Shown: piece by piece, positions 4,714 through 34,934 of the stretch | Position numbering within the stretch: position 1 is the stretch's first letter | Layout: the number at the start of each line of letters is the position of its first letter | Source of the DNA: a virus | Direction: 5' to 3' (one strand) | DNA length: 46,281 bases | Virus record (IMG/VR): IMGVR_UViG_3300047560_001606 | Coordinates: 1-46,281 of that record | Made by a program: the position numbers and the translations under genes | Notes under the pieces: generated by a model | Database searches by the model: none | What the model was told of the DNA's origin: nothing | Seen by the model: only the letters and a program-made list of their open reading frames with translations

Positions 4714-4723
4714 AACAGCACTT

Positions 4724-4731: not shown

Positions 4732-4732
4732 T

Positions 4733-4740: not shown

Positions 4741-4761
4741 CTAAAAAGGACAATAGTAACT

Positions 4762-6230: not shown

Positions 6231-6231
6231 G

Positions 6232-8721: not shown

Positions 8722-8723
8722 CT

Positions 8724-10175: not shown

Positions 10176-10177
10176 AC

Positions 10178-11941: not shown

Positions 11942-11944
11942 ATA
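11937..11944 (+). promoter_or_regulatory. CATAAATA box overlapping the stop codon and close to the gp25 start
   Basis: CATAAATACACTATGG (11937-11952) contains the late-promoter core and the ATG of the gp25-like gene only 4 bases later. The same 16-mer with one change occurs at 34770-34785. If it is a promoter, transcription would begin at or next to the ATG, giving a nearly leaderless message. No Shine-Dalgarno is present in between. Confidence 0.4.
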
Positions 11945-11948
11945 CACT

Positions 11949-12380: not shown

Positions 12381-12400
12381 AAGCCACTGATTTCTGCTCT

Positions 12401-12408
12401 GATAAATA
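12401..12408 (+). promoter_or_regulatory. late-promoter-like box GATAAATA before gp6
   Basis: GATAAATACTAA lies in the 49-bp gap between the gp25-like and gp6-like genes, 21 bp before the ATG at 12430. By analogy with T4 late promoters, RNA would start about 6 bases after the box, leaving a short leader with GGGAAA as a weak ribosome-binding site. Confidence 0.6.
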
Positions 12409-12429
12409 CTAAATCACGGGAAATCTAAC

Positions 12430-16071: not shown

Positions 16072-16092
16072 GAAAACAGTGGTTTTTGCCGA

Positions 16093-16100
16093 GATAAATA
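16093..16100 (+). promoter_or_regulatory. late-promoter-like box GATAAATA before the giant gene
   Basis: GATAAATACTTAATC lies 28 bp before the ATG at 16129, inside the 57-bp gap after gp6. AGGTAAAG downstream of it can serve as ribosome-binding site, with a spacing of about 12 bases. Confidence 0.6.
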
Positions 16101-16128
16101 CTTAATCTACAATAGGTAAAGTATTAAC

Positions 16129-19100
16129 ATGGTCAACCAAGTCAGAACACTCGATTTTCTCCCAGAAATATTCAAAACAGAAACTAACGACCAGTTTCTG
16201 TCATCGACTCTGGATGTTCTAACCAAGCAGCCGAACATGACCCGTGTTCAGGGCTACATTGGTAATAAGTACGGCTACGCAATCAATGCTGGTGACAATT
16301 ACATCACTGAGCCTACCGCTACCAGAAGTAATTATCAACTAGACCCCGCCGTAGTATTTCTAAAAGAAGATACACAGAGCGCTACTGACTTTATTGACTA
16401 CCCAAGCATCATTGCCGCATTATCAAATGCCGGCGCAGTCACTGACAATCACAACAAACTTTTCAGTAACAAGTTCTACAGTTGGGACAGTTTTGCTGAC
16501 ATCGACAAACTAGTAAACTACGCTCAATATTACTGGCTACCTTTAGGTCCCGACGCAATTCAGATCAGTCAAGAAATCACAATCGATGACATCCTAGATA
16601 AGACTAGTTACACAGCACCTAACGGTTTAGAGTTCGTAAACGGACTCAAAGTTAACTTTGGTGGTATTGTGCATCCAGAAAACTACAAAGGCGTGGATTA
16701 CTATGTTGAGGGAGTAGGTACATCAATTACGCTAGTACCAGCAAATGAACTTCTATGTACAGAAGTTACCGGCGGTGGTATCTACACCCCATGGGATAAT
16801 GACCCGTTCGATACGGTCGACTGGAGTATCTCCTTGTATGTACCTATTCAACCAGACTACATTGTAATGAGTCGCAGTAGTAGAGAACGCAACGCATGGT
16901 CTCGAGGCAACCGCTGGTTCCATCAGGGAGTACTTGATGCCCACATTAAGTACAATGGTGTAGTAACAAACAATCAGTACAACACACAAACTCGTGCCCA
17001 GCGCCCAATTGTTGAATTTCAGGGCAATATGTCTCTGTACAATAGTGGTACGTCATTTGCAGCAATCGTAGACTTTATTGATACTCGTACTAAAGACGCA
17101 TTATCATTAGTAGCGGGACAAGAACACTTTATCGTTAGTACAGATGTTAACAGAACAAGTAATCGCGTATCAACAGACGGTATTGTGGTAAATGATACTA
17201 CAAATTTAGTCGAGGGAATGAAAGTTACATTCTCGGCAATCACCGGAACATTACCATCACCACTATCATCTGCCACCACATACGAAATTCGTTCGATTGA
17301 TAATGTACTATCGGCAATCACTATTAGTTCACCAAGTACAACAGTTAATGGTTCAGTAATTACTCCTAATGTTATTGTAGTCACACCTGGTGCCTATGAT
17401 ATGAAAGTATCAGGCATATCAGAAATTGGTCTACTGAACGACACTACTGTTGTATTCGCTAACGACGATGATGTTAATGTTCGTAAGACAGTGTACAAGG
17501 TAACATCAGTTGAAGCTGGCGCTGGTCAAAAGAAAATCATCGCACTTACACCACTGCCTAATGTTACTGTGGAAACAGAAGGTCAACTGTACATTGCTGC
17601 TGGACCAGGCGACTACTTAGGACAAGCATGGCGCTTCTCTACTGAAGTTGACGGTATCATTCGTCCCGCGGGCGAACAAGGCTGGATTCAAAGTCAAAAG
17701 AAAATCGCAATCAATCAAAGCCCAATGTTCGATATGTTCGACAGTAACGATGTCAGTTTCTCTGACAAGTCGTTCTACATGAACTCAACATTTAAAGGCA
17801 CAAAATTATTCGGCTACACTATCGGCACAGGCACAAACGACTCAATCTTGGGATTTGCTACTACTTACAGTAGCCCAGCGAACACTGGCGACTTCTTATT
17901 CACCGTTCATATGAACAGTGACCAGTTTACATACACTAACGCTTCAACTGGCGCTACAATCACTAAGATGATTAGTGATGGTTACGCACATCATCGCCTA
18001 ACAACTACATCGACCGTAAAGCGTACTGGTTGGGTAGAAGCAGTTGCACCTAGCGTACAGTATCAAGTGTTTATCTTTGATGTGACTGATCTTAATAAAG
18101 ATGGTCTACTATGCGATGTAGCAATGAGCTCAGAAGCACAAACTGTATGGTCACCAGTAAAAATTTACAAGAACGGCGAGTTTGTTGACAGCTCATACTA
18201 CACAACAACAGTAGATACAGTAGCTGGCACTACATTAATTAAATTCAAAACTACACTAACTGTCGGCGATAATGTATCAGTTCAACTAATCAGTGAACAA
18301 GTAAGTAAAACGGCGTATTATCAAATCCCAAGCAACTTACAGAGTAACCCGTTCAACACTCAAATCAGTAGTATTGCTGCTGGTGATTTGAAGAACTACT
18401 ACGCTAGTATCTTTGGTAACGCACCTCGTGCTGCCGGTCTAGTATTCGGTCAGAATAATTTAGGCAACTTAGGTGATCTAGCAAAATACGGCAACACAAT
18501 CATTCAGAACAGTGCTAGTTTATTACTGCCTGGCGTATTCTTGCGCAAATCTGACTACGATCTACAAACTGCTCTACAGTTCAATGCTGATGAGTACATG
18601 GACTACAAGCATACCGTCATTCAACTAGCTTCGTCGGGTGACTACTCTGTGTATCAAACACCGGCGTCAATTTTAGATGACATCATCTACCAAATTTCTA
18701 GTTCAAAGAGCGAATCGGACTCATTCTACTGGAGTGATATGATTCCTTCTGGTAGTCCATTCAAAGTAAACACATACAACTTTGGCGCTACTGTATCATT
18801 TGCTACATTCTCAACTAGCAGAGTGTATGATTTTGCTAGCGCTAATTACCATAGTTTAGTAGTGTATCAGACTGAAACTGTTGATAATAAAACCATCACA
18901 ACTCAACTTGTTCGTGACATTGATTACTTTGTCAGCACTACTGAACCTAGTGTTACTATCAAACGAACATTAACTACTGGTAGTACTATCACGGTAAAAG
19001 AGTACAATCAAACTTGGGGTAGTTACATTCCTAACACTCCGACAAAATTGGGCTTGTTTGCGGCAACAGTACCAACGGTTGTGCTTGATACGACATACAC

Positions 19101-22100
19101 TCAACCAACATACTTTATCGTAGGACACGATGGCAGTTACACCCGTCTCTATGGTACATATGAGAATAATCAACTACAAGATTTCAGAGACATCGTACTT
19201 TTAGAATTCGAAACAAGAATTTACAATAACTTAAAAATTACTGATGCTTCACCAGTCAGCTACACTGATTTGATGCCCGGGCAATGGCGCAAAACAGGCT
19301 ACACTTGGGAAGACATTCTGCCAGCATACACTAAAAACTTTCTAGGTTGGGTTGGCAAGAACAAATTAGGCGACTACCGCAAGCAAGTGTTCTCGTCAAA
19401 CAACAAATTTACATTCAACTACAATAAGACTACTAACAAGTTGTCAAGCACACAGAAAAATCCTGTTCTATTGAAACAGGGTAACTGGCGTGGTATCTAC
19501 CGATGGTTCTATGATACTTGTAATCCTGCGGCTGCGCCATGGGAGATGCTAGGAATCACTAGTAAGCCTCAATGGTGGGATTCTCGTTACGGTGCGGCTC
19601 CGTACACAAGTGGCAACGCTCTAATGTGGCAAGACATTGCTGATGGTAGAGTATGGAACAATGGCTCACCATACATCGACAATGCTCGTATTCGCCCGGA
19701 ACTTCTATCGGTTCTACCAGTTGATATCAACGGTGACTTAGTTGACCCGCTAGAACGAATAGTTGATAACTATGACAGTTTAACATTTGAGAGAGGCTGG
19801 GTAGCAGGAGACAGTGGCCCAACGGAAACAGCATACTTGCGTAGTAGCACTTGGCCATTCGATCTGATGAAATTATTAAGCGCATTCAAGCCGGCCTCAT
19901 TTTACAATCTATTAGTTGATAGAGACTTGTACAAGTACAGTACTGAATTAGGTCAACACTTATTCAATGGTCGCTATCACTTAGACCCGACACAACTGAC
20001 AATTTATGGCAGTGGCACTGCTAAGCACTCTTACATCAACTGGGTAGTAGATTACATCAATCAAACTGGCACTGATGGCCAAGCTTCAGTAGCAACTACG
20101 CTAAAGAATATTGATGTTCGTTTAACATACAGACTTGCTGGTTTCAGTGACAAGCAATACTTACGCTTCTTAACAGAAAACACTGCTCCTAGTGCTACTT
20201 CAAATAGTCTACTAATCCCAGACGACAGTTATTCTGTTTTACTCTACGATAATGTGCCTAGTGATCAAGTAACATACAGTAGCGTAATCATTCAAAAAAC
20301 AGAACGCGGTTACACAGTATGGGGTAATAGTCTAACTAAACCGTACTTTAGTACAGTCGCGCCAAAAACTGGCCCATATCAAAAACTTACATTCGGTACT
20401 ACAACAGTTCAACTATCAACAGTGTATGAAGCTGGCTCTAATGTATCAATCGCGTACGGTACAGAATTCTACACAGTTCAAGGCACTAGTGAGTTCTTAC
20501 GCAACTATGGTCGTTGGTTAACCGAGCGCGGCATCATGTTTGAAAACATGATTGACGATTCTCAAGTTAACTGGGACTCAATGATTGGCGAGTTCATTAG
20601 CTGGGCACAGCAGAGTTGGGAAGTAGGCAGCATCATCAGTCTAAACCCCAATGCGAAAGAGTTCAAAGTTTACAAAGCTGGCCTAATAGTACAGCCATTA
20701 ACACTACACAAAGAAAACTTCATTCTCAATCAAAACTTGATTACACTCAAGAGTCAGAATATGGCAGTGTTGAGAAAAAATGAAGAGTTTACTGTTCGTG
20801 TTCTAAGTGACGGTGATACCGTTGCTTACACAAACTTGAACTTGAGTACAGTCGAACATGCTATCGTGTTTGATAACAAGACTGTATTTGGTGATACAAT
20901 TTACAACACCGACAGCGGACTAAGACAAACTCGTCTTATCATGCAAGGCAAGAAGACTGCTGACTGGAGCGGTTATGTAAACGCCGACGGATTTATTCTT
21001 AATCAAGCAGATATCAAAGAGTGGAACAACTCAACCAAGTATCCTAAGGGACAAATTGTCTTGTACAAGAACAAGTACTGGTTTGCTAAAGAACTTATTC
21101 AGCCTACTGATACATTCGATTACACACTATGGACAGAAAGTAGTTACGACAACATCAAGCAAGGTCTACTGCCTAACCCTAGTACGATTGCTTATGAAAG
21201 CAGTCAACTCTACGATATTCAGCAAGCAAACTTAGAGCAAGACGAAGACTTGCTAGCATTCGGCTTGATCGGCTTCCGTCCTCGTGAGTACATGTCTCTT
21301 GCTGCCTTAACAGATGTAACACAAGTAAACATCTACAAGAACATGATTAGTAGTAAGGGTACTAACAAGTCAGCACTAGCGTTCAAGGGCGCTACGCCAC
21401 TACAGGGTGACTTAGACTATGATGTCCGTGAAAACTGGGCTATCAAAAACAGCACATTTGGTAGTGTACTCAACAGTAACTTCGTTGAAGTACAACTGTA
21501 TCAGAATCTATTGACTGGCAACCCAGCAATCATCGGCTTCGGTGATGCTATGTCTAGTACTACTGACTTCTCTACGGTTGCGTTCAATTCTGGCGTACAG
21601 CAGAAAGTATCTATCGGTGATGCTCTATTAAAAGGCAAGAAAAAAGTAAAAGGCGACAAAGACTACATCTATCAAAACGATCTAATCAACTACGGTCGTA
21701 ATCCAGCAAATGCGAACTTCTTACCAACATACAGCTTAACTTATGTTGAAGAGCGTGGTCTACCAAGCGCCGGTTATGTAAACATCGACGATGTTGATTA
21801 CTATGCTTACAATCTAACCGATCTCAATACTACTGCTACAAATATCTCTGAACTGTATCGTGGTGATGTAGTATGGGTAGCAAACTACAACTCTAAGTGG
21901 GATGTGTTTACTCCAGTAAGTATCGGCACAACTCTAAGCACTGTTCGCAATAACTTAGACAACACGGTCACTCTAATATTCGCTCAACCACACGGTCTAC
22001 TCGAAGATGATCCGTTTGTAATAGTTGACTTTGATGACCGCGTGAATGGTTACTACACAGTGAAGTCAGTATCAAATCTTACATCTCTGGTCATTGATCT

Positions 22101-25100
22101 ATCACTAGCTAAGACAGTAGTAAAACTAACAGGCACTGGTATCACATTCAAGTTGTACAGCGTCAGAGTATCACAAGCAAGTGATCTAAGCGCATACTCG
22201 GAAGCAGTACCGTTCTCAGAATTCTCCACTCGTTTGAGTTGGATAGATGAAGACACCAATGGAAACTGGTCAGTACTAGGCGCAGCGCCAGTGTATGAGA
22301 AGCAAAAAGGCACATTCGATGTAGATGAGAATGGCACTGATGTAAATCCCGGCATCGCCGGTTACGGCAAGTCAGTAGCATACACTAGTGCTATTGGTGA
22401 ACTAGTAGTTGCTAATGCTGGATTGTACAGAAATGGCGCTCTATTGGAGCCTATCTCTGGCTTAACTGCGGTCGTAGCATCTGGGACAACCGCCATTTGC
22501 AGTACTCCGTCTACACTCTATGTATTAGACTTCTCAACTACAATACACACAAAAATACCAATCGATGGAATTAATACTAACACTGGCGTAATGACGCTTA
22601 GTAAAGACACTAACTGGTTGTATGTTGCTACCGGCACTGTACTAACTACATACTTCAAAGTAGGAACTACCTACACGAAAGTAGCATCTACAACAGTAGA
22701 CAGTGAAATCACAAGTCTAGCAACTGCCAAAGATGGCAGTAAAGTAATCGTAGGCGCCGGTAATCAATCACTAGATGTGAACGGCGAGACATACTCGGAA
22801 GCCGGTGTAGTGTATGTGTATGACAGAGCAAGTCGTTCTTACTTACAAAATGTAACAGACTTAACTAAGAAAGAATTTCCAGTACCCGCATCACGTGATC
22901 TAGTAAAAGCACAAGTCTATGTTAATGCCTCATTGAAGGAAGAGGGTGCTGGCGACACAATGTACAAGATTGCCGGCAAGAAAATTATTTTCAATACGGC
23001 GCCACCTGTTGGTACAACAGTGTACATTAACTATGGCGAACTAACATTACAGCAGACAATCACTAGTGAAAAGAAACATATCGGTGCTAACTTCGGTCGC
23101 TCTGTTGCAACAAACAGATACGGCGCAGAAGTAATCATTGGCGCACCGTATGAACTAGCGACAGTCAACGAAGTAAAGAACGTTGAAGGTGCGGTCTACC
23201 GCTTCACTAACTCAGGTCAGCGCTACGGTACAGTTACTGCGACTGTAACTGATGCAGCGGTAGGTATTCTGTACATTGACGGCTTTGAAGTTCCATACAA
23301 TACAGAAGATACAACTAATGACGCGGCAATTGTTGCTCTAAGATACACTGTATCTAAACGCAATCGTGTAGCATATCAGATTAACTTGATTGAACCAACA
23401 AACGTAATTGCTACATATGGCGACACGCCCGTAATCAGCTTATATAATAAGACTGGCACGGCAGCGGTGCCTAACGATCAGATCGATATTGTTGGCGGTG
23501 ACTGTATCGTGGGTAGCACTACTCAATCAGGAGCAAAATCACTTGAGAATATCGGCATCATGCCATACACTAGAACTCAAGTACTCAACGACAAGAACTT
23601 AGACACAAATAGTCAGTTCGGCTGGACAGTAGCAGTTAATCAAGATGACAGTGATAGAGACAGTATCATCGTCAGCGCTCGTTCAGTAGATACATTCAGT
23701 GAAACCACATTCGATTTCACTAACGATTTAAACGCGATGAATGATTGTATCTTCGATAACGGGGCTACAACATTCATAGACAAGTTCCCATTCACGGGCG
23801 GCGTGTATCAATATGATTATCTGCCATCGACGACTGAATCAATCGATGCACCAGGTAAATACACATTTGGTCAGTACTGTATCATTCCGACAACCGATGC
23901 GGAGCGTAATAAACAAGCAGCCGCACCGCACTATGGCGCAGCCTTATCATTTACTGACGGCGTAATCACTATTGGTAGCCCAGACTGGTACAAAAACGGA
24001 ACTGGTCGTGTCACCACCTTCAAAATCAACAGCAAGTCAACTAAGACAAGTAGTTGGTACATTGATAAGCAACCTCTAACACAAGTTGATGTTGCTCGTC
24101 TAAGCACAATTTCTATCTACGACACTGAAACTAATAAGACATTAGACAGATTAGATTACATTGACCCTGCGCAGGGCAAGATGCTATCAGCAGTAGAAAC
24201 AAACATCGACGTTATTAGTCTCGTTGACCCAGCCGTTTACACATCAGGTCAAATATGGGGCGCAAATAAAGTAGGCACAACATGGTTAGATACATCAAAC
24301 ATTCGCTTGATGAACTACAATCAACCAGATGTAGTGTACAACTCACGCTACTTTGGTAGAGCATTCCCTGGCAGTACTGCCGATATCTACACATGGATTA
24401 GCAGTTCTGTTCTACCCGTTGATTACAGTGGCAGTGGTTACACTACAAACTTTAACGACTACACTAGTGCGACTATCATCGATAAGTCAAGTAACACACT
24501 AGCAACAGAATATTATTTCTGGGTCAAAGGCTACGAAGAAGTGCCACAAGGCAAAACTCTAAGTCCAACAGTACTAAGTCAGTACATCTTAAACCCAGCT
24601 AACAGTGGCGTGCCATTCTTGGCGGCAATCACTACAAATGTGGTGGCACTGTACAACGCACAAGACAGTATTCAAAGTCACGCAAGTGCGCTACATTTAG
24701 GCTACAGTGTTGGTAATAATAGTGATCGTGGACATCAAGACTGGTCATTGATTCAAGACGGCAACGATGAGTCATTCTTGTCTGGTATGCCACTAACTAT
24801 CGATGGTGCACCATCTGGTATGTACTTGAAATATGTAACTAGCTTCATGGGTATGGAACTCAATGGACTAGCAGTGCCTGATATGGAACTACCAAAACTA
24901 GTTCGCTACGGTACATCATTCCGTCCTCGTCAAAGTATGTTCGTTGACCGTGAACTAGCATTGAAGAACTATGTTCAGTATGCTAATAGCATCATGTCCA
25001 AATACACTATTACTGAAACTCGCGGTCTGTACTTGTTGAATCAAAGTTCATACATCACGGGTTCAGTAGTTGCCGAGTCAAGCACTAATATCTACATTAC

Positions 25101-28100
25101 TACAGAAGCAGGTAAGACTGTTACTGGGTTGTACATCGGTCAACCAGTAGTGTTCAAGGGCAACGCATACGGCGGTCTAGAAGCAAACAAGACCTACTAC
25201 ATTGTATCAACAGATACAGACAAGTATGGTCAGTACATTCGTGTAAGTGTTACACTAGGTGGCGCAGTAATATCTCTAACAGAATACACGGGCTCGATGA
25301 GTGTAAAACTATTTGATACTACTGATTACTGGAGTTATGCTGACTGGTGGGCCACTGGCTACAGCGCAAGTACAAAAGTCACGCTAGAAGTACAAACATA
25401 CACTGACTTACTAACTATTGGTCAAGGTGAGCTAGTAGCCGGTGACTTCGGTAATGTAACACTCAGTGATGGGCTAGTTGCTCGTGTAGTCAAAAACGGT
25501 CAGGGCGTAAATGAATACTATGTTTATTCATCGACCACATCTAGTTGGACAAGAATTGGGCTACAGAAAGGCACTATCTCAATCGATACTGCCGTTTACA
25601 CAACTGTTGCTCCTATTCCATCTATGGAAATTTACTACATCATTCGTTGGATCGCAGAACAACTGTATGTAAATGAACTATTAATTGAGAACAACCAAAG
25701 TCTAATAATGATGTTCAACTTGATTCAAAGTGAAGGACAACAGCAACAGAACTATCTACCATGGTTGAATAAAACTAGTTTGATCGATGTCAAGCATACT
25801 ATTCGTCAACTATTACCATACAAACAGTACAAGCGAGATACTCGCGAGCTAGTTGAAGGCTACTTGAAAGAAGTAAAACCTTATCATGTCTACATCAAAG
25901 ACTTCTCATTCACATATGATGGCACAGAATACTACAACGGTAGCTTTACTGACTTCGATTTACCAGCTCAGTATGACACTACTACAGGTAAGTTCCTGAG
26001 TCCGCAATTAGCATACACTAGCACTGCTAGTGCCGATCAGTACTCTCCTACTAATACTATCTGGACAGACGCTGCCTATAGCAGCTGGTTTAAAAACTAT
26101 GGTCTAACAATCAGTAACTCACAGGTAAGTGCTATCTTAGTTACTGGTCTAACAGACGACCTAAGTAATACTGGTACATCAATCGTTGTTAACGAGTCAT
26201 CTGTTCTACCAGTAAATGGCATCATCAAAATAGGCAATGAAACAATCAAGTACACTATCTTAGATCGTTCAACAAACACTATCAGTGGTCTTACTCGTGG
26301 CCTAAACTTCCAACAACCAACCGATTATGCGGCCGGTACTAGTGTGTATCTACTTCCAGAAGCAGTGATGGTAATGGACAGTGGACGTGGCTACACCAGT
26401 TTACCAGCAATTACTGCTCACTATGATACTACCGAGTATCCTTACGCACCTCGAGAACAAGCAACTTTTGTTGCGGGACTAACTGAAACCAAACTATCAT
26501 CAGTTACTTTAACTAATTCTGGCAGCGGCTATCCAGTGCTACCAGAAATCAGAGTTGCTAGTAGTAGCATCACTGGTACTATTACATCTAGTCAAGTAGA
26601 TATTGTACTACATCAAATTTATCTAGCAGGGCATCAGTTTGTTACAGGAGACTGCGTAATAGTATCTAACATAGAAGATGATTCTAAAACAGTTGGTCTA
26701 AAGAACAATCGTTACTACTATGTGAACTCCGTAGACGAAGATCACATTGCTCTTTACAATTCATACCGAGACGCTCTAGTTGGTTACACCACAGTAGAAA
26801 AATCTCTTGCTTATGAAAGTATTAGTGTAACAAAAACTATTACGATATCTCAATCATTTGAGGTCGATGCTCTACCATTCAGAACTGGTGATCGCATCAA
26901 ATTGATCCTAGCAAGCGCTCCATCTACGCCACTCTACTATTATGTAGAGAACTTAGGAGTAACACCAGCAAGTGTGGTATCAGGTAAGCCATTAATCGCT
27001 CTCTACTCGACCTACTCTAAAGCTATGACTGGATTAACGAGTGACAGAGTATCCGTATCAGGCGTAGGTAGCATATCGAATTTACCGGACGTTGACGCTG
27101 ACAGAGTAGCATTCACTTCAACTGATAAAGTTGATGGTGTGGTTGCTGTTACTGCTCGTGTCAAACTATTTACAGACAATCTACCAACTCGTGAAATGCG
27201 AATCGGTATGAAGTTTGATCGTGTGTCATACTTGAGTTACGCTAAAGATTGGAATCAAGAAACATCACTATTCGGCGACAGTGGTTGGGATACCGCTGCC
27301 TGGGGTAAAGGTATCTATTACTCTAAGAATCAACTAGCAGTGTACAATGGCACACTCTACCGCGCGAATAGAAATTTAAATACTACGGCTCTAGCAGACA
27401 CATTCAATCTAGCATACTGGGATGAAGTAGATAGTAGTGACTTATCACTAACTGCAGCAGACAGAATTGCTGGCTTCTACAAGCCCAACGCAAATATGCC
27501 AGGATTCACTATGGACGATATGAGTCAGTTGATGACTGGTGTTACTAGTCCATGGCCTACAGTGAAAGACCCAGCATTTGCTGATACTAAGACATATGCT
27601 TTTGTGTCTGGTCAAGTAGATTTATCTAATCACACTGTACAACTTCGTGACACTAAACCAGAAGTAGTTACATATGTAGAACTAATTGATAGTACTAGTA
27701 ATAATATTATCAACCTTACTGCTCTACCAGCCGTAACTGACACATCTAATGTTGGCATGACATTGAAATCAGTAGATAATGTTCGTATCGGCGACAGAAT
27801 AAAGTTTGACGGCTCATTGATTGGTAACATTCTAAACAGTGACGGCACTGATTCTAAAGCCACAGTGAAAGACAAGAGTTATGTTATCAAGTCAATAAAT
27901 GCCGCTAGAGACATTATCAGTATCAGTAATACTATGATTAATGGCACTATCGGTAACGCAGTAACATTTACTGATGCCTCCGGATACATGACAGTTCTGC
28001 CTGTAGAATATTCTACTAGTAATCTCTATGCTAACGGCAACATTACTCTTAACACAACATCATTTGTTGAGAATAACTCCACTGTTCGCTTTAGTAATAC

Positions 28101-31100
28101 AAGTGTCACGATTAATGCTACCAGAACATATTCTTCTACAAACTCAGCCACGCCTAATCAAATCTTAGTTGACACTACTAAGAATATTGCTACAGGCATG
28201 ACAATCACATTCAGTGGAACATCATTTGGTAATATCAGTAACAGTACCACATACTTTGTAAAACAGGTTATCGATACTAATCATATCACTGTGTCGGAAA
28301 CTCTACTAGGAGAAGCTCACACACTAACTGCGAATACAGGAGCACTGACTGCTAAAGTAATAGGAACTTTTGGTAAGTACAATGTACAAGTAGCTTCGAA
28401 TACCTACTCATCAAATAACTTCATTAGTGTTGGTTCAACTGATGGACTGTATGCTGGTATGCCAGTATCATTCACTGGTACAATGAACGGCGGATTGAGC
28501 AATATTAGTACCGTTGGAAATAATTACTATTCTGTAAACTCTGTAAGTACCTCTACATTATTTGATATCAAATACACAAGTAATAACGCAGTAGTCACAT
28601 TAGCAAATGGCAATAAAAAGATGCTTGCTACATTTATCGCAGATGGTATCATTAACGACAGTGATTACTATGTAACATCAGTAAATGCTAATAACAATGT
28701 AACATTGAGTTCTACTGTTGGCGGCGGCACAGTAAAATTACTAAGCGCTACTGGCGTCATGAGTGCTGATATTAGTTCGTTCTATCTAACTAGCATTACT
28801 GATACAAAAGAACTTATCGTAAACTCATCAGATGCCGTTAACTCGTTAGCTATCGGCGACTCAATTTACTTTACCGGTACATCGGTCGGCAATGTAGCAG
28901 TTGGTAACTCAACCACAAATCTTTACACAGTCAAATCATTGAATCCTGCTACCAACAAGATCACCGTCGCAGAGATTGATAATTTATCACAGGCAAATGG
29001 TGGACACATGACAATGTGGAGAGTGGCAACACCAGTGAAGACGGCATTTGCTACTAGCGACATGGTGAAGGTAGTCTACACTTATCCTACCAATAGAACT
29101 ACTGATTACTACTTTGTTCATAGCGTAGCTAATACACAGATAACTCTACATGATGATGCAACGGCGGCCGTTGACGGTAGTAACCCAGTGTATGTACCAG
29201 ATGGAGCAATCGGTACTGTAATCAAGCCACAAACAATCGTGGCACTAACTGATCCTATTGGTTACGACAGTGAGCTAAATCCTCGCGGGTTCAAGCCAGG
29301 CACTGCGCTAGAAATGACTTTTGAACAGTCAAGTAATCCTACTAACTTCGGTCTAGTGAATTACAAGACTTACTGGGTCGGTATCATTGACAGTGTACAT
29401 GCTGCAGTTTACGAAAGCAAAGATGATGCCGAGAACGACACTAACAGAATTCCTCTACTAAATCAAGTAGGTGGCCAATTCTTGTATGGTATTACTTATG
29501 ATAGTATTATCAAGAGTCCACGTGATAATAGTGATACTCAAGTTGATATTGTTGGTGCATCATTCACAAGTGGCTACTCACCAGAAGAAATGGTAGCGGG
29601 TATCGTTACAGACGGCATCAACTTCACCGTTACAACTCGTCCAGGCTCAACTTGGGAAGCTACTGGCGCCGTAACAGTAGTGAACTCTAGTAATCTTACT
29701 GCCAATAAAAAGTACAAGATTGTATCTTTAGGCACAACTGACTGGAACACAGTGACTGGAATTCCAGGCGTAAGTTACAAAGCAGGAGACGAGATCATTG
29801 CCAGAACTAGCGATAGTGGTACAGGCACTGTGACCGCCGTTGAATACGGACACACTGGCTTTAACATGGTCAGAATTAGTGCTGTTAATCCAAAAACTGT
29901 GTACTATCCAGACGGAACAAAGATTTACACTGATAGTACTAAGTCTACTCTAGTAAATGGCATTCAATTTAAAGACACCGTAGTGAATCCAGTGACAATT
30001 ATCGTTTACGGTAATGACAACTATGGCCAAACTAGACTAACACCTACTACAAAGTATTTGACGGGTGACTACACAGTAGACTGGATTAATCAAGTAGTTA
30101 CCTTTACTGCGGCTGGTTTAGCAAAAGGATATGTATCATATGATATCGTAGTGTACGAATTTGGTAACGGTAGCCACCTAGTTCGTAGTAGTAGCAAATA
30201 CTATCCATTGAAGAAAGTTCAGGATAACAAAGACAGTGCTACAAAGACATACCACAGTGAAATTCATTTAGATGTACCGTACAGTCAAGTAGAGTTACCA
30301 ACAAGCGATAACTTTGGTCTATCAACCATGGTATTTGCTGGAAGCACTACTTCAGATACTACTCCATTAACTTATCTAACTGATATCACTAATCCTGAAT
30401 ATGGTTCAACTGACCCATTAAATTTTGATTATGAAGATCACTACACTATCGAACCTCAGCGTCCGTATGACCCAGTGAATGATCCGTACAACCCAGCTAA
30501 GATCGTATTCTCTAAGTTGTACAGTAATGAAACTGACTATGTATCATTTGTATTAACCACTAATGTAATTGGTATGTTCGTGGTGTCTACTACTGATATG
30601 AACTCAACATACATCATTGATGGTGTAGAATGCGTAAAGTATGTAGCACCTCTAAATGTAACAACCTTTAATTCTCTTAAATTACTAGTATCACTAAACG
30701 ATAGTCAATTAACTCCTAAGTCAATAGAGTACACCAATAACTTTGTAACTATCATGATCGATGCTAGTAAGATAAGCGTCAATAATAATATCAAAGTAAG
30801 TTACGATAGTAACGGCGCTGGCGCACCTATGACGCAATGGATTAACGCCGCTCAAGCAACAGCGATCACCTTTATTGAGCCAGTTAACACTGTACTTAAA
30901 TCTGTCAGTGTTACAGGTACAGGAGGCGAACTATCATTTCAATCAACGACTGTAAACTACGGCACTGCTTGGGACAACACTAAGGAATACAAAGAAGGCG
31001 CAATCGTTCGTTACAGTGGAGCTAGATACTCTGCGGTGTCTAGTTCTATTGGTGATCCAAACTGGCATACCACAGTTGGCACTTGGGTACCTTCTGAATG

Positions 31101-34100
31101 GACACTAGCCGATATTAAAGTCGTCATTAGTGGTACATTGAATACTGTTGCCTCGTTCCCAGTGTGGGACGACTCGTCTGCTTACGCTATTGGAACCGTT
31201 GTTAACTATGGTGGTGCTCTGTATTCAGCTAATGTTGATATCACTGCGCCAGCCGATCCATTAATTCCTAATACATGGAATGCTGCGGATTGGACACTAG
31301 TTCAAATGGCAACCATCACTGGTTACACCGGAACATCGACTACCTATGATCTAACTGCTTCTAATAACAGTACTACTATTACCTTGTCTGGGGTGACTAC
31401 TACGTCTGGTAGAACAGATGGCCTGACATTCACTGTTGTTGCTTCTACGGCGGTCACTCGTATTCCGTACACTTTGACAGGATTCCTCGGCGATGATAAC
31501 TACAGTTCTATCGTAGTGAATAAGATTAGAGCGGATGGCTTCTTTGAGGGACACTCTACCATTGAGATGAAGGTCAATGATGTGGTGACTATCACAGGAC
31601 TTTACACTCCAGATCCACAGAATCCACCGATCGCGGGTTACCATTCACCTAAGAAATATTACATTGCTGAAACTGATGGGTACTCAATCTTTAAGTTGAC
31701 TAGTTACTTCGGCGGCGTGCCCGATGTAGCTGTAACTGCTGGTCCAACTACTGGGTTAACGTTCAGTTTACAAAATAACTTAGTTGTGGAAATTGATGGT
31801 CTACGTGTCGATGGTCCTTCAGCTACCCAGACTTATCGTAAAATTATTCAAGTTGGTAAAGACGAATTGAAGTTATCATATCCAACACCGGTTTATGGTA
31901 TCAACGAGTTCGATATCAATTACTTCACTGTATTGGTAAATGGTTCAACTATCCCCCAAGTTAATCCTTCTAATACAGCACAAGTTAACTGGTCATTAAA
32001 TTATGACTTTGCTAAGGGACAGTTCTATCAGTTTGATGCTGACTTCATCAACGCTGTATTCAATCCAGTGATACCAGCCACTGATGCTCAAATTGCTAGC
32101 GGAGCATGGGGTTTCTTCGATGATGGCACACCATTTGATAACCAATCATCATTCAATGTGGTATTTAATCCTACTTATCTATCATTGAAGACAGGAGATA
32201 TTGTTACCTTATCATATCAAGTTCCTGGTCAGATTCCACCTGATACGTTTACTATCACAGTTAATGATAATAAACTAGGCGGAACTATCAATATTATCAC
32301 TAGTGCTATACCATCAGTTAATTCTAAGGTAGCAATTACATCGTTTGGTAGAACAACTAATCAAAGTTTAAGAACTCAGCGAGTTACAGACGCTACAATC
32401 AATGTTATTCCTAGAATTTCTACATTAGTAAATACAACTACTGGTTCTCCATTCAAAGGTCTAGTTATTGATGGTACTAATCCACCATTATTAACACTAG
32501 ATGCCGCTCATAGTTTGACTACCAAGAGCCCACTACAGCAAGTAATCATTCACGGTACCGCCATACGTTCAATGGACGGCCGCAGATTCTACACAAGTGA
32601 TACTAACTACAAGACAGGAGCAACAGTACAAGATAAATCACGACAAGTTTATTTGTACAACATTGATAATCCAACGTCTTCTACCGGATGGGATACTACT
32701 GCTATTGCGGGGCCTTTCTCATTAACTGGAAGTAGTTATCTTCAATTATTGAACATTGCTAATACCGCTGAATCAACTATCGCTATTAACCCACTAGTAA
32801 TTAATCAACCTGCTGGATTTAAGATGACTAACGTTGATAGATTGTATGTTAGTATTATCTATGGTCCAAATTCCGGTTCAATGATCGGTCATCGTGAGTA
32901 TGTACCTACTTCTAAATTGAGCTATGTCCAGTATGAAGATGTGAGTACGCTTCTAATCAGACAAGCGGTAGCCCCAGGCGATGAAGTACTAATAACAAGC
33001 ATGGTGCCTACAGCTAGTCCTAATGAAGGTAAATTCAGAATTAATAATACATGGAACATTGTGTCTGGTGAACCTAATTCTACCACACTACACAGAGAAA
33101 ATCAAGTATCAAGAACATATGTAACTAATGTGTATTCTGATACTGATGGAACTATTACTTCATTCAGAGTTAACAACCCACATGCTCTAGTTAAGAAAGC
33201 AGTATTCTCTGGTACAGATTCCGTATTAGGATCTAGAACCCTAGATATTGATTCCGTTACTGGACTGTATTACTGTACAGTTGACAATGTGAACAACAAA
33301 CAAGTTGCTAATATTGTAGTTACTGCTCCAGGTACCACTACTCCTATTACCAGTGAGTTTAGTTTCGTTGGTGTATCTAATGCGACCACTGTAAAAATTC
33401 TATTCAATACTAGACCAGTGGATGCTTCTGGTATCTATCTAACAAAGGTTGATGTTACTATCTCTGCTGGTAATACGGTAATGATTAACGGTGAGCAACT
33501 ACGTTACACTAATATCAACTTAGATTACAGTAGTCCTAGTTACGGTATCATAACTGGATTATTCAGAGGTCTAAACACTACTGGTGATAAAGAAATCAAG
33601 GTCTATGATATTGTACAAAGTATCTTGGATGAGAATATCAGTGATACTGGCAATCTCAATAAGACATGGTACAGTAACATAATTGAGACTACATTGCCTA
33701 GTGCCAATAGTGTTGCGGGTGTTCATACATTCCCGTATGTAGCTACTATTAGTAGTGACGGCACTTCTACTCTACCAGAAATTGGTATGGTGAAATCTGG
33801 TGACACAATCGCATTTAAGACACAAACAGTAAAAGTAACTACTGGTGGTAACATCACAGTAACTGATTACATATCTTCTAATGTAACTGCTAATGTGATT
33901 TACACAAATGCTAGTAGTGAAGAGTATGTGTATGCTACTTATTATGGAAATTACTCATCGACGTATCAAACAATGGAACTGGTATCTACTGCCGGTATCA
34001 CAATCGGTATGTACATTACCGGCAACGGTGTGGCCGCTGATACGACAGTTACTCAAATCTTTGGTTCTGTTATTACATTGAGTAAGCCATTAGTAAGCGG

Positions 34101-34767
34101 CACAGTTCTATCCTCGGGTGACATCTACACATTCTACAATCTACCTACAACCACTCAGTTCCAGTTTATTACCACTGGAAATGATAATATCAAGAAGGTA
34201 AAAGTAGGCAGTAAGGTACTATTCAAGCATGGTACAGATACGGTTACCACCGCCACTGGAAGTACCGGTAAGTACATAACAGTAGCATCTTCCGCTAATA
34301 TTACTGCCGGACAGTACGTAAGTGGAGCAAATATTGATACATTGAGAGTGATGTCTGTAAATGGTAGTACCATTGAATTAAATGCTAACTCCGCCGGAAC
34401 GATATCTGGTAGTTACTCATTCTTCAATGCGGTGTCGATTGTTGAATTAAATAGTAATAATGAACCGCAGGAAGTGGTTGAGTTCACTGTAACTAATAGC
34501 CACAAGAGCACAGATGCTACTTGGACAATCGAAATCGATAAGGAACCAGCAGTGCGAGTAGGTGATGTCGCAGTCATGAAATATCACGACTTTGATATCA
34601 TAACCAGTCAACAAGTTGGCAATACATGGGTGATTACTACCACTGAAAATCCAAATATTGCTACTGGCACTAACGCTTTGGCGTACATGACTTATGCTAA
34701 GACGCTGCCAATGCAGTTCGACGAGGACAGTATGGTTGCTACTTTCTTGAATAAGCAGATTAGATAA
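16129..34767 (+). CDS. giant multidomain baseplate/virion protein, 6212 residues, in the gp7 position
   Basis: A single open frame of 18.6 kb directly after gp6, where T4 has gp7 (1032 residues). The N-terminus (VRTLDFLPEIFKTETNDQFL, then NYQLDPAVVFLKED and VNYAQYYWLPLGPDA) and a block near residues 1110-1190 (GNWRGIYRWFYDTCNP, PWEMLGITSKPQWWDSRYG) are, from memory, a conserved family of large wedge/peripheral baseplate proteins in marine T4-like phages. Around 2090-2625 lies a beta-propeller-like region with FG-GAP-type repeats. Near 3190-3250 there is another conserved block (IRQLLPYKQYKRDTRELVEG). From ~3340 to the end the protein is a chain of fibre-like beta modules. Four W..S..Y..G..V..Y modules begin at W1632, W3725, W4948 and W5013. 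It probably forms the baseplate periphery plus attached fibre-like arms. Codon pattern and style are uniform throughout, so it appears intact. Structural role is strong; equivalence to gp7 is positional. Confidence 0.78.
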   Translation: MVNQVRTLDFLPEIFKTETNDQFLSSTLDVLTKQPNMTRVQGYIGNKYGYAINAGDNYITEPTATRSNYQLDPAVVFLKEDTQSATDFIDYPSIIAALSNAGAVTDNHNKLFSNKFYSWDSFADIDKLVNYAQYYWLPLGPDAIQISQEITIDDILDKTSYTAPNGLEFVNGLKVNFGGIVHPENYKGVDYYVEGVGTSITLVPANELLCTEVTGGGIYTPWDNDPFDTVDWSISLYVPIQPDYIVMSRSSRERNAWSRGNRWFHQGVLDAHIKYNGVVTNNQYNTQTRAQRPIVEFQGNMSLYNSGTSFAAIVDFIDTRTKDALSLVAGQEHFIVSTDVNRTSNRVSTDGIVVNDTTNLVEGMKVTFSAITGTLPSPLSSATTYEIRSIDNVLSAITISSPSTTVNGSVITPNVIVVTPGAYDMKVSGISEIGLLNDTTVVFANDDDVNVRKTVYKVTSVEAGAGQKKIIALTPLPNVTVETEGQLYIAAGPGDYLGQAWRFSTEVDGIIRPAGEQGWIQSQKKIAINQSPMFDMFDSNDVSFSDKSFYMNSTFKGTKLFGYTIGTGTNDSILGFATTYSSPANTGDFLFTVHMNSDQFTYTNASTGATITKMISDGYAHHRLTTTSTVKRTGWVEAVAPSVQYQVFIFDVTDLNKDGLLCDVAMSSEAQTVWSPVKIYKNGEFVDSSYYTTTVDTVAGTTLIKFKTTLTVGDNVSVQLISEQVSKTAYYQIPSNLQSNPFNTQISSIAAGDLKNYYASIFGNAPRAAGLVFGQNNLGNLGDLAKYGNTIIQNSASLLLPGVFLRKSDYDLQTALQFNADEYMDYKHTVIQLASSGDYSVYQTPASILDDIIYQISSSKSESDSFYWSDMIPSGSPFKVNTYNFGATVSFATFSTSRVYDFASANYHSLVVYQTETVDNKTITTQLVRDIDYFVSTTEPSVTIKRTLTTGSTITVKEYNQTWGSYIPNTPTKLGLFAATVPTVVLDTTYTQPTYFIVGHDGSYTRLYGTYENNQLQDFRDIVLLEFETRIYNNLKITDASPVSYTDLMPGQWRKTGYTWEDILPAYTKNFLGWVGKNKLGDYRKQVFSSNNKFTFNYNKTTNKLSSTQKNPVLLKQGNWRGIYRWFYDTCNPAAAPWEMLGITSKPQWWDSRYGAAPYTSGNALMWQDIADGRVWNNGSPYIDNARIRPELLSVLPVDINGDLVDPLERIVDNYDSLTFERGWVAGDSGPTETAYLRSSTWPFDLMKLLSAFKPASFYNLLVDRDLYKYSTELGQHLFNGRYHLDPTQLTIYGSGTAKHSYINWVVDYINQTGTDGQASVATTLKNIDVRLTYRLAGFSDKQYLRFLTENTAPSATSNSLLIPDDSYSVLLYDNVPSDQVTYSSVIIQKTERGYTVWGNSLTKPYFSTVAPKTGPYQKLTFGTTTVQLSTVYEAGSNVSIAYGTEFYTVQGTSEFLRNYGRWLTERGIMFENMIDDSQVNWDSMIGEFISWAQQSWEVGSIISLNPNAKEFKVYKAGLIVQPLTLHKENFILNQNLITLKSQNMAVLRKNEEFTVRVLSDGDTVAYTNLNLSTVEHAIVFDNKTVFGDTIYNTDSGLRQTRLIMQGKKTADWSGYVNADGFILNQADIKEWNNSTKYPKGQIVLYKNKYWFAKELIQPTDTFDYTLWTESSYDNIKQGLLPNPSTIAYESSQLYDIQQANLEQDEDLLAFGLIGFRPREYMSLAALTDVTQVNIYKNMISSKGTNKSALAFKGATPLQGDLDYDVRENWAIKNSTFGSVLNSNFVEVQLYQNLLTGNPAIIGFGDAMSSTTDFSTVAFNSGVQQKVSIGDALLKGKKKVKGDKDYIYQNDLINYGRNPANANFLPTYSLTYVEERGLPSAGYVNIDDVDYYAYNLTDLNTTATNISELYRGDVVWVANYNSKWDVFTPVSIGTTLSTVRNNLDNTVTLIFAQPHGLLEDDPFVIVDFDDRVNGYYTVKSVSNLTSLVIDLSLAKTVVKLTGTGITFKLYSVRVSQASDLSAYSEAVPFSEFSTRLSWIDEDTNGNWSVLGAAPVYEKQKGTFDVDENGTDVNPGIAGYGKSVAYTSAIGELVVANAGLYRNGALLEPISGLTAVVASGTTAICSTPSTLYVLDFSTTIHTKIPIDGINTNTGVMTLSKDTNWLYVATGTVLTTYFKVGTTYTKVASTTVDSEITSLATAKDGSKVIVGAGNQSLDVNGETYSEAGVVYVYDRASRSYLQNVTDLTKKEFPVPASRDLVKAQVYVNASLKEEGAGDTMYKIAGKKIIFNTAPPVGTTVYINYGELTLQQTITSEKKHIGANFGRSVATNRYGAEVIIGAPYELATVNEVKNVEGAVYRFTNSGQRYGTVTATVTDAAVGILYIDGFEVPYNTEDTTNDAAIVALRYTVSKRNRVAYQINLIEPTNVIATYGDTPVISLYNKTGTAAVPNDQIDIVGGDCIVGSTTQSGAKSLENIGIMPYTRTQVLNDKNLDTNSQFGWTVAVNQDDSDRDSIIVSARSVDTFSETTFDFTNDLNAMNDCIFDNGATTFIDKFPFTGGVYQYDYLPSTTESIDAPGKYTFGQYCIIPTTDAERNKQAAAPHYGAALSFTDGVITIGSPDWYKNGTGRVTTFKINSKSTKTSSWYIDKQPLTQVDVARLSTISIYDTETNKTLDRLDYIDPAQGKMLSAVETNIDVISLVDPAVYTSGQIWGANKVGTTWLDTSNIRLMNYNQPDVVYNSRYFGRAFPGSTADIYTWISSSVLPVDYSGSGYTTNFNDYTSATIIDKSSNTLATEYYFWVKGYEEVPQGKTLSPTVLSQYILNPANSGVPFLAAITTNVVALYNAQDSIQSHASALHLGYSVGNNSDRGHQDWSLIQDGNDESFLSGMPLTIDGAPSGMYLKYVTSFMGMELNGLAVPDMELPKLVRYGTSFRPRQSMFVDRELALKNYVQYANSIMSKYTITETRGLYLLNQSSYITGSVVAESSTNIYITTEAGKTVTGLYIGQPVVFKGNAYGGLEANKTYYIVSTDTDKYGQYIRVSVTLGGAVISLTEYTGSMSVKLFDTTDYWSYADWWATGYSASTKVTLEVQTYTDLLTIGQGELVAGDFGNVTLSDGLVARVVKNGQGVNEYYVYSSTTSSWTRIGLQKGTISIDTAVYTTVAPIPSMEIYYIIRWIAEQLYVNELLIENNQSLIMMFNLIQSEGQQQQNYLPWLNKTSLIDVKHTIRQLLPYKQYKRDTRELVEGYLKEVKPYHVYIKDFSFTYDGTEYYNGSFTDFDLPAQYDTTTGKFLSPQLAYTSTASADQYSPTNTIWTDAAYSSWFKNYGLTISNSQVSAILVTGLTDDLSNTGTSIVVNESSVLPVNGIIKIGNETIKYTILDRSTNTISGLTRGLNFQQPTDYAAGTSVYLLPEAVMVMDSGRGYTSLPAITAHYDTTEYPYAPREQATFVAGLTETKLSSVTLTNSGSGYPVLPEIRVASSSITGTITSSQVDIVLHQIYLAGHQFVTGDCVIVSNIEDDSKTVGLKNNRYYYVNSVDEDHIALYNSYRDALVGYTTVEKSLAYESISVTKTITISQSFEVDALPFRTGDRIKLILASAPSTPLYYYVENLGVTPASVVSGKPLIALYSTYSKAMTGLTSDRVSVSGVGSISNLPDVDADRVAFTSTDKVDGVVAVTARVKLFTDNLPTREMRIGMKFDRVSYLSYAKDWNQETSLFGDSGWDTAAWGKGIYYSKNQLAVYNGTLYRANRNLNTTALADTFNLAYWDEVDSSDLSLTAADRIAGFYKPNANMPGFTMDDMSQLMTGVTSPWPTVKDPAFADTKTYAFVSGQVDLSNHTVQLRDTKPEVVTYVELIDSTSNNIINLTALPAVTDTSNVGMTLKSVDNVRIGDRIKFDGSLIGNILNSDGTDSKATVKDKSYVIKSINAARDIISISNTMINGTIGNAVTFTDASGYMTVLPVEYSTSNLYANGNITLNTTSFVENNSTVRFSNTSVTINATRTYSSTNSATPNQILVDTTKNIATGMTITFSGTSFGNISNSTTYFVKQVIDTNHITVSETLLGEAHTLTANTGALTAKVIGTFGKYNVQVASNTYSSNNFISVGSTDGLYAGMPVSFTGTMNGGLSNISTVGNNYYSVNSVSTSTLFDIKYTSNNAVVTLANGNKKMLATFIADGIINDSDYYVTSVNANNNVTLSSTVGGGTVKLLSATGVMSADISSFYLTSITDTKELIVNSSDAVNSLAIGDSIYFTGTSVGNVAVGNSTTNLYTVKSLNPATNKITVAEIDNLSQANGGHMTMWRVATPVKTAFATSDMVKVVYTYPTNRTTDYYFVHSVANTQITLHDDATAAVDGSNPVYVPDGAIGTVIKPQTIVALTDPIGYDSELNPRGFKPGTALEMTFEQSSNPTNFGLVNYKTYWVGIIDSVHAAVYESKDDAENDTNRIPLLNQVGGQFLYGITYDSIIKSPRDNSDTQVDIVGASFTSGYSPEEMVAGIVTDGINFTVTTRPGSTWEATGAVTVVNSSNLTANKKYKIVSLGTTDWNTVTGIPGVSYKAGDEIIARTSDSGTGTVTAVEYGHTGFNMVRISAVNPKTVYYPDGTKIYTDSTKSTLVNGIQFKDTVVNPVTIIVYGNDNYGQTRLTPTTKYLTGDYTVDWINQVVTFTAAGLAKGYVSYDIVVYEFGNGSHLVRSSSKYYPLKKVQDNKDSATKTYHSEIHLDVPYSQVELPTSDNFGLSTMVFAGSTTSDTTPLTYLTDITNPEYGSTDPLNFDYEDHYTIEPQRPYDPVNDPYNPAKIVFSKLYSNETDYVSFVLTTNVIGMFVVSTTDMNSTYIIDGVECVKYVAPLNVTTFNSLKLLVSLNDSQLTPKSIEYTNNFVTIMIDASKISVNNNIKVSYDSNGAGAPMTQWINAAQATAITFIEPVNTVLKSVSVTGTGGELSFQSTTVNYGTAWDNTKEYKEGAIVRYSGARYSAVSSSIGDPNWHTTVGTWVPSEWTLADIKVVISGTLNTVASFPVWDDSSAYAIGTVVNYGGALYSANVDITAPADPLIPNTWNAADWTLVQMATITGYTGTSTTYDLTASNNSTTITLSGVTTTSGRTDGLTFTVVASTAVTRIPYTLTGFLGDDNYSSIVVNKIRADGFFEGHSTIEMKVNDVVTITGLYTPDPQNPPIAGYHSPKKYYIAETDGYSIFKLTSYFGGVPDVAVTAGPTTGLTFSLQNNLVVEIDGLRVDGPSATQTYRKIIQVGKDELKLSYPTPVYGINEFDINYFTVLVNGSTIPQVNPSNTAQVNWSLNYDFAKGQFYQFDADFINAVFNPVIPATDAQIASGAWGFFDDGTPFDNQSSFNVVFNPTYLSLKTGDIVTLSYQVPGQIPPDTFTITVNDNKLGGTINIITSAIPSVNSKVAITSFGRTTNQSLRTQRVTDATINVIPRISTLVNTTTGSPFKGLVIDGTNPPLLTLDAAHSLTTKSPLQQVIIHGTAIRSMDGRRFYTSDTNYKTGATVQDKSRQVYLYNIDNPTSSTGWDTTAIAGPFSLTGSSYLQLLNIANTAESTIAINPLVINQPAGFKMTNVDRLYVSIIYGPNSGSMIGHREYVPTSKLSYVQYEDVSTLLIRQAVAPGDEVLITSMVPTASPNEGKFRINNTWNIVSGEPNSTTLHRENQVSRTYVTNVYSDTDGTITSFRVNNPHALVKKAVFSGTDSVLGSRTLDIDSVTGLYYCTVDNVNNKQVANIVVTAPGTTTPITSEFSFVGVSNATTVKILFNTRPVDASGIYLTKVDVTISAGNTVMINGEQLRYTNINLDYSSPSYGIITGLFRGLNTTGDKEIKVYDIVQSILDENISDTGNLNKTWYSNIIETTLPSANSVAGVHTFPYVATISSDGTSTLPEIGMVKSGDTIAFKTQTVKVTTGGNITVTDYISSNVTANVIYTNASSEEYVYATYYGNYSSTYQTMELVSTAGITIGMYITGNGVAADTTVTQIFGSVITLSKPLVSGTVLSSGDIYTFYNLPTTTQFQFITTGNDNIKKVKVGSKVLFKHGTDTVTTATGSTGKYITVASSANITAGQYVSGANIDTLRVMSVNGSTIELNANSAGTISGSYSFFNAVSIVELNSNNEPQEVVEFTVTNSHKSTDATWTIEIDKEPAVRVGDVAVMKYHDFDIITSQQVGNTWVITTTENPNIATGTNALAYMTYAKTLPMQFDEDSMVATFLNKQIR
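21022..21150 (+). other. CBM5/12-like carbohydrate-binding module 1 within the giant protein
   Basis: Residues ~1632-1674 read W-N-N-S-x-x-Y-x-x-G-Q-I-V-x-Y-x-N-x-Y-W and end in a Trp (YTLWTESS). This spacing of aromatics and Gly is that of chitin-binding type-3/CBM5/12 modules found in chitinases and phage fibres. Confidence 0.5.
22400..24005 (+). other. beta-propeller / FG-GAP-like region within the giant protein
   Basis: Residues ~2091-2245 contain propeller-blade-like turns (SKDTNWLYVATG, then TAKDGSKVIVGAG, then GVVYVYDRAS). Residues ~2322-2625 contain three FG-GAP-like units: GANFGRSVATNRYGAEVIIG, SQFGWTVAVNQDDSD and HYGAALSFTDGVITIGSPD. This resembles integrin-alpha-type propellers, which mediate ligand or surface binding. 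The number of blades cannot be fixed by eye. Confidence 0.55.
27301..27432 (+). other. CBM5/12-like carbohydrate-binding module 2 within the giant protein
   Basis: Residues ~3725-3768 read W-G-K-G-I-Y-Y-S-K-N-Q-L-A-V-Y-N-G-T-L-Y, then run to a closing Trp (AYWDEV). The aromatic and Gly spacing matches the other three modules of the protein. Confidence 0.5.
30970..31320 (+). other. tandem CBM5/12-like modules 3 and 4 within the giant protein
   Basis: Two modules stand head to tail, starting at W4948 (WDNTKEYKEGAIVRYSGARY) and W5013 (WDDSSAYAIGTVVNYGGALY). Each ends in an EWTL or DWTL strand. They share the same aromatic skeleton and are only 65 residues apart, as expected of a tandem duplication. 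Confidence 0.6.
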
Positions 34768-34781: not shown

Positions 34782-34934
34782 ATGGAAAAACAGAATAAAT
34801 CAGAAATCGTGTCTTCTCAGGGCGAAATCCCTGAGAAGCAGCCGAATGAAAACGCCGGTTTCTATTTTTCTAGTTTCTTAAAGATTACAGACCCCGAGAC
34901 AGGGCAAGTCCTAGTTCAGGCAAGGGCAGATTAA
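34782..34934 (+). CDS. small 50-residue protein related to the N-terminus of the next gene product
   Basis: ATG at 34782 opens a 50-codon frame ending TAA at 34932-34934, filling the 180-bp gap between the giant gene and the next one. The product starts with a charged, disordered segment (MEKQNKSEIV) and ends in a short domain, FYFSSFLKITDPETGQVLVQ. That domain resembles HIKIFDPNDGEVFVDKDN near the start of the following protein. It therefore looks like a small stand-alone copy of that domain rather than noise. AAGG lies about 12 bases before the ATG. Function is unknown; by context it is a small virion or assembly protein. Confidence 0.6.
   Translation: MEKQNKSEIVSSQGEIPEKQPNENAGFYFSSFLKITDPETGQVLVQARAD

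Follow-up and report, generated by a model that had tools for sequence, protein, structure and literature searches.

Two questions are raised by this locus: (i) is the 18.6-kb open frame that directly follows the gp6 gene a single, genuine gene and (ii) what is the function of so large a protein in the place that phage T4 gives to gp7. The window, by which we mean the whole 46,281-nucleotide stretch of viral DNA that was analysed (record IMGVR_UViG_3300047560_001606, probably a fragment), contains an uninterrupted forward-strand frame of 6212 codons with an ATG start and a TAA stop. It takes up 40.3% of the window, and the remaining two forward frames across the same interval contain 470 and 648 stops. 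The encoded protein, referred to below as the giant, is 6.0 times as long as T4 gp7 (1032 aa), which is likewise encoded directly after gp6. A sequence-only reading had drawn attention to a stop-free frame filling 40% of the window and to a six-fold excess in length over T4 gp7 at the same position, and both observations stand. We think that the giant is probably a single wedge protein in the baseplate of the virion and corresponds, in the window phage, to gp7. The features on which this view draws are collected in Table 1.

Table 1. Features of the giant gene and its neighbours, with window coordinates and the basis of each assignment
Feature	Coordinates	Strand	Basis
gp25 homologue, baseplate wedge	11949..12380	+	PHROG 261 and 43
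gp6 homologue, baseplate wedge, 1213 aa	12430..16071	+	PHROG 10646, E 6.5e-256; PHROG 219; hhalign to T4 gp6, 80.8%
ATAAATAC, T4-late-promoter-like site upstream of the giant gene	16094..16101	+	Intergenic placement
Giant gene, 6212 residues, directly after gp6	16129..34767	+	Open frame, identical copy, homologues, selection
Conserved core A, residues 1-2050	16129..22278	+	Common to essentially all family members; PHROG 10938
N-terminal helices, residues ~7-32, candidate A for a gp6-bundling helix	16129..16233	+	Predicted helices; inference
Residues 1451-1476, candidate B for a gp6-bundling helix	20479..20556	+	Best core match to cyanophage gp7 N-terminal helix
CBM5/12-like module inside the core, residues ~1632-1671	21022..21141	+	Profile search matches PDB chains with chitin-binding modules, best E 0.001
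KGT-motif helix, residues 1733-1765	21325..21423	+	Best match to cyanophage gp7 KGT helix
FG-GAP beta-propeller, residues ~2060-2640	22306..24048	+	Pfam FG-GAP_2 above gathering score; fold matches
Conserved core B, residues 2600-3335	23926..26133	+	Common to members down to 3.1 kaa; PHROG 10938
Lineage-specific C-terminal arm, residues 3340-6212	26146..34764	+	L101 and L103 alone align over nearly the full length; selection
Repeated modules of ~60 aa, residues 3501-4295	26629..29013	+	Iterated HMM, 9 copies
Tandem CBM5/12 carbohydrate-binding modules, residues ~4946-5043	30964..31257	+	Pfam CBM_5_12
50-aa ORF directly downstream of the giant gene	34782..34934	+	Kept in L100, L101 and L105
Conserved protein, 205 aa	34948..35565	+	PHROG 11259, E 1.2e-67; 38% identical to PA5oct gp357
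Fibre-type protein, 653 aa	35575..37536	+	PHROG tail fibre family, C-terminal, E 9.5e-5; C-terminus common with PA5oct gp359
Fibre-type protein, 649 aa	37570..39519	+	Weak Peptidase_G2; N-terminus common with PA5oct gp358/gp359

For the first question, an identical giant gene is found in the 64-kb IMG/VR contig IMGVR_UViG_3300043410_001300, and three further IMG/VR contigs carry intact homologues, which are 6076, 6000 and 6154 aa long; the first of these is 72% identical to the giant over the aligned part and the second 53%. The frame is therefore no assembly accident. Comparison with the relative L101 gives dN/dS values of ~0.05-0.20 per 600-codon block along the whole gene, including the last 2800 codons, and a third-position excess in every block. 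Against a second relative, L103, the ratio is 0.11-0.36 in the blocks where it can be estimated; all of these values are approximate, as dS is near saturation. The uniformly low ratios against L101 indicate that the gene is translated and selected over its full length, and its C-terminal half is, as judged from these substitution patterns, real coding sequence. A DNA-level scan for tandem repeats returned one trivial array only, and the protein modules described below are thus not recent duplications.

The first 2000 residues of the giant match PHROG 10938 with an E-value of 9.6e-194, and a second slice, corresponding to core B, matches with 1.1e-54. Searching with the giant by tblastn gave matches in 84 jumbo-phage records. 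Family members belong to jumbo myoviruses (RaK2-like phages, PA5oct, Atu_ph07, SCTP-2 and XacN1) and are mostly 3.1-4.6 kaa long: 3138 aa in RAS14, 3313 in XacN1, 3321 in K64-1, 3323 in phAPEC6, 3341 in GAP32, 3342 in Munch, 3771 in Vibrio phage 2.275.O, 3807 in SCTP-2, 3857 in PA5oct, 4449 in Atu_ph07 and 4555 in Phosso. The RAS14 and XacN1 proteins are distantly related to the rest (E ~1e-90 with the core HMM). Complete family frames in IMG/VR contigs are mostly 3.7-5.7 kaa, few exceed 6 kaa, and the giant is the longest member seen. In all annotated relatives examined, a gp6 homologue directly precedes the family gene. With a profile match over its core, a gene directly downstream of gp6 and collinear cores A and B, the giant is a large new member of a family that databases already list but do not explain; 'virion structural protein' is the only annotation given there, and in PHROG the family is placed in the head and packaging class.

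The closest comparison is with phAPEC6 gp245, PA5oct gp355, GAP32_230, Atu_ph07 gp180 and SCTP-2 gp140. Like the giant, these proteins are encoded directly after gp6, have cores A and B in identical order and are virion-associated where tested. They differ from it in length (3.3-4.6 versus 6.2 kaa), in sequence (23-29% identity to the giant) and in having shorter C-terminal arms with no detectable similarity to its own. The phAPEC6 protein, which we confirmed from the phAPEC6 record to be a homologue of the giant, is a 381.88-kDa component of the virion proteome, identified by 17 unique peptides at 7.6% coverage beside the baseplate wedge protein gp244 (PMC7247149). An ESI-MS/MS note accompanies gp355 in the PA5oct record. 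Two further proteins may belong here: CBB_236, detected with 21 peptides beside the baseplate wedge protein CBB_237 (PMC5259590) and related to the family by position only, and AP-J-162 ORF58 (4455 aa), which follows a baseplate wedge gene (PMC11242549) and is assigned by position and by similarity to Atu_ph07. Together with the open frame and the signature of selection, the virion-detected relatives support the earlier proposal that the gp7 position is taken by a single, unbroken giant protein of virion type. We also note that the K64-1 record (L009, NC_027399) annotates many small ORFs over a single 3321-aa frame at 9827-19792, which is an annotation error. In SCTP-2 (L003), the gene at 2609-11899, which lies directly upstream of the family gene in the gp6 position, encodes a protein that is itself very large (3096 aa), so that in one relative growth may have extended to the adjoining wedge gene.

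Alignment of diverse relatives shows that conservation covers residues ~1-2050 and 2600-3335, with a variable segment at ~2060-2600. The sequence-only reading had described a conserved, baseplate-type N-terminal third. Conservation is indeed present, but it is distributed over two blocks and does not simply correspond to the first third, and the term 'baseplate-type' agrees with gene position and relatives but finds no counterpart in gp7-gp12 profiles or in PDB folds. A predicted model of residues 1-1190 (mean pLDDT 75) has no PDB fold match at E<=0.001, and its strong BFVD matches are to Atu_ph07 and uncultured phage proteins, apparently of the same family. A PDB sequence search of the core returned nothing except CBM5/12 and FG-GAP motifs, and the CBM5/12-like module within the core is weaker than the tandem pair in the arm. 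A propeller-like domain had also been predicted, and here both lines of evidence agree: FG-GAP scores above the Pfam gathering score, and a fold search with a model of residues 2092-3290 (mean pLDDT 71) returns propellers of the WD40 and integrin types at a probability of 1.00 and a best E-value of 5e-8. The length of the propeller varies between relatives. A Pfam match to WDR55 was taken as a propeller cross-match.

The C-terminal arm, of ~2870 residues, is far more restricted in its distribution. None of 50,697 phage records contains a match to its last 1845 residues, and when the final 1545 residues were used to scan viral contigs, with strict patterns that missed L101 and L103, the identical contig alone was recovered. 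An iterated HMM identifies 9 copies of a ~60-aa module in the giant, 10 in L101, 6 in L103 and 1-2 in most others, with E-values that come from a model built on these same sequences; extra copies lie near residues 168, 352 and 2996. The tandem CBM_5_12 match scores 39.6 bits, against a Pfam cut-off of 26.2, and carbohydrate binding is predicted for this segment. Most of the arm is without a recognisable domain, and a PDB sequence search with it gave chance matches only; matches to YajC, HIRAN and bPH_7 were sub-threshold and were set aside. The picture of a variable, modular C-terminus following a conserved core and propeller is thus upheld by the alignment of relatives, the ~60-aa repeats and the CBM5/12 modules, whereas a long chain of fibre-like modules can be recognised at residues 3501-4295 and in the CBM5/12-like modules but not in the largely domainless remainder.

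For the second question, we compared the family with the wedge proteins of T4. Ten family-profile slices gave no hhalign match to T4 gp6-gp12 (0.0-0.9% probability, and 0.1-0.3% for gp7), and as a control the window gp6 aligned with T4 gp6 at the probability given in Table 1. At the level of profiles, neither the core nor the arm shows homology to T4 gp6-gp12, and T4 gp7 has in common with the giant its position after gp6, while being six times shorter and without detectable sequence or profile similarity. Cyanophages are more informative. The protein following gp6 has 6932 residues in S-SSM4 (YP_007677248.1; L149, 9788-30586), 6395 in S-RIM8 (L150, from 13998; length from record coordinates), 4225 in ACG-2014f, where it is annotated as baseplate wedge initiator, and 3533 in S-MbCM7; the corresponding proteins of Melnitz and pf16 have 896 and 523. 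Proteins in the gp7 slot of T4-like phages thus range from 523 to 6932 aa. The size of the giant, put forward earlier as among the larger for phage structural proteins, is exceeded in the same slot by S-SSM4 and S-RIM8, and we dropped the idea of a size record for this reason. A profile of the cyanophage N-termini matches T4 gp7 at 93.4% over gp7 residues 84-1003, and the T4 gp7-like part of the cyanophage giants is their first ~1100 residues; as a caution, S-MbCM7 annotates another, later gene as gp7.

The cyanophage giants (S-SSM4, S-RIM8 and ACG-2014f) resemble the window giant in their slot after gp6 and in their size, and S-SSM4 shares some modules with it (hhalign 96% to the 3300-4200 region). 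In contrast to their T4 gp7-like first ~1100 residues, the window core matches them by a weak motif at most. The cyanophage gp7 profile has no whole match to window core slices (0.1-1.0%). In a sliding hhalign scan, residues 1451-1476 were the top slice for the cyanophage N-terminal helix (probability 38%) and residues 1733-1765 gave the top slices for the KGT helix (~22%); both matches are weak, both exceed 30 shuffled controls, and they stand in the right order. The KGT motif was first spotted by eye, and the KGT scan is therefore no independent test. We regard this collinear pair of putative motifs as a weak lead and not as proof. An alternative candidate for contact with gp6 is at the N-terminus, where helices are predicted at moderate to low confidence for residues ~7-32. 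These may bundle with gp6, by likeness to the N-terminal helix-turn-helix of gp17, the gp7 orthologue of phage XM1 (PMC10457771). XM1 gp17 has only 242 residues, and its unresolved flexible or variable parts bind spikes (PMC10457771), so variation in gp7 size is an established feature. Compared by its literature description, gp17 is 25 times shorter than the giant and would be expected to have the same role, that of a wedge scaffold with two gp6-type chains and spike-carrying variable parts (PMC10457771).

Our preferred reading of the giant is a wedge anchor, equivalent to gp7, that has become overgrown and bears a variable surface arm. Several observations argue for this: the slot after gp25-gp6, the PHROG 10938 match, the virion-detected relatives, a conserved core set against a variable arm, selection over the full length, the propeller and CBM modules, the spike-binding variable parts of XM1 gp17 (PMC10457771), the weak collinear motif match to cyanophage gp7, and the occurrence in cyanophages of a protein in this slot that is a recognisable gp7 with a giant extension. 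Against it are the lack of a T4 gp7 profile match and of a PDB fold match for residues 1-1190, the head and packaging class in PHROG and the domainless state of most of the arm. Because there is no profile or PDB fold match, the case for a gp7 role is built on position, on analogy and on a weak motif signal. As a wedge anchor, the conserved core would bind two gp6 chains to form the wedge, as in T4 and XM1 (PMC10457771). Six copies would be present per tail, as for gp7 in T4; six chains of this length would amount to roughly 4 MDa, as estimated from residue count. The propeller and variable arm would be located at the baseplate periphery, where the CBM5/12-like and repeated modules would bind surface glycans or brace separate fibres, and the periphery would relay the signal for sheath contraction inward. 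The protein would have grown mainly through modules added after the core. Jumbo myovirus baseplates are largely unexplained; the family is here tied to the gp7 slot, and its constant core, variable arm and the size range of the slot provide a testable reading of how baseplates became enlarged.

A more elaborate version of this model, which we offer tentatively and consider rather doubtful, is that the gp7 slot grew to more than 6000 residues separately in two lineages, the cyanophages and the jumbo family, with cores that lack detectable homology. A wedge anchor, a propeller and a glycan-binding arm would have merged in one chain, and the gp7-like unit of the giant would lie deep inside it (~1450-1770) behind a 1450-residue N-terminal extension.

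It is also conceivable, though unlikely, that the giant is a peripheral protein of the baseplate or fibre network that merely occupies the gp7 gene position, with a true, diverged gp7 encoded elsewhere. The missing gp7 profile and fold matches would be accounted for in this way, and a beta-rich chain with a propeller and carbohydrate-binding modules fits the periphery. However, in T4 the gene that follows gp6 is gp7, and in cyanophages this slot encodes a protein still recognisable as gp7; the core is also kept across jumbo phages of many hosts, and such conservation would be unusual in a protein that binds receptors.

Less probable still is a single precursor that is cleaved as the phage assembles or later within the virion, with the arm becoming a separate fibre, an arrangement compatible with a gp7 role for the core. 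The length alone invites this idea, as does the hint of an auto-processing domain in a neighbouring fibre protein. A protease or self-cleavage domain was looked for inside the giant, however, and none was detected, and the phAPEC6 homologue is listed as one 382 kDa product (PMC7247149), with the proviso that peptide mapping is no proof of intactness. The neighbouring domain in question, in the 37570-39519 product, is Peptidase_G2 (intramolecular chaperone/auto-cleavage), at 23.0 bits, below the Pfam cut-off of 25.

The sequence-only reading had suggested a fusion of baseplate periphery and receptor-binding arms into one polypeptide; the periphery would here comprise gp7, gp8, gp10 and gp11. 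The length, the modular arm and the CBM5/12 modules are in keeping with such a fusion, and profile comparison of downstream window proteins gave no match to gp8-gp12 for any of those tested. No slice of the giant matches gp8-gp12 either, however, and two separate fibre-type genes lie downstream, one of them linked by its N-terminus to PA5oct gp358, a gp10-type protein. Moreover, S-SSM4, whose gp7-slot protein is larger, still has gp8 as a separate protein, along with one of gp9/gp10 type. The separate fibre genes make it unlikely that the whole periphery has been fused, and we consider this proposal, as originally made, highly improbable. An artefact of assembly or annotation joining two or more genes is refuted as far as sequence can do so by the identical frame in a second contig, by three intact homologues of 6000 aa or longer and by dN/dS values of about 0.2 or lower throughout against L101.

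Returning to the wedge-anchor reading, the gene order around the giant suggests how it may be expressed. Upstream in the window are genes for SbcC/SbcD, a late sigma factor, a small wedge protein (99 aa), a hub/lysozyme protein, gp25 and gp6. The motif ATAAATAC occurs four times in the window (11938, 12402, 16094 and 34771), always between genes and on the forward strand; in this order, the four sites lie a short way upstream of gp25, gp6, the giant gene and the 50-aa ORF. This count is not above chance, and a scan for consensus promoters and terminators found no excess over shuffles; placement, and the presence of a late sigma factor gene in the window, suggest that these sites are probably T4-type late promoters. 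From a late promoter at its ATAAATAC site, the giant gene would be transcribed separately as a late message. The 50-aa ORF, conserved in the near relatives L100, L101 and L105, resembles small genes at the equivalent place in PA5oct (gp356) and Atu_ph07 (gp179), and the gene after it repeats its motif K-I-x-DP-x-x-G-x-V-x-V at the N-terminus. Beyond the fibre genes, a radical SAM gene is present at 44757-46121, and Atu_ph07 and Phosso also have one downstream of their giant genes.
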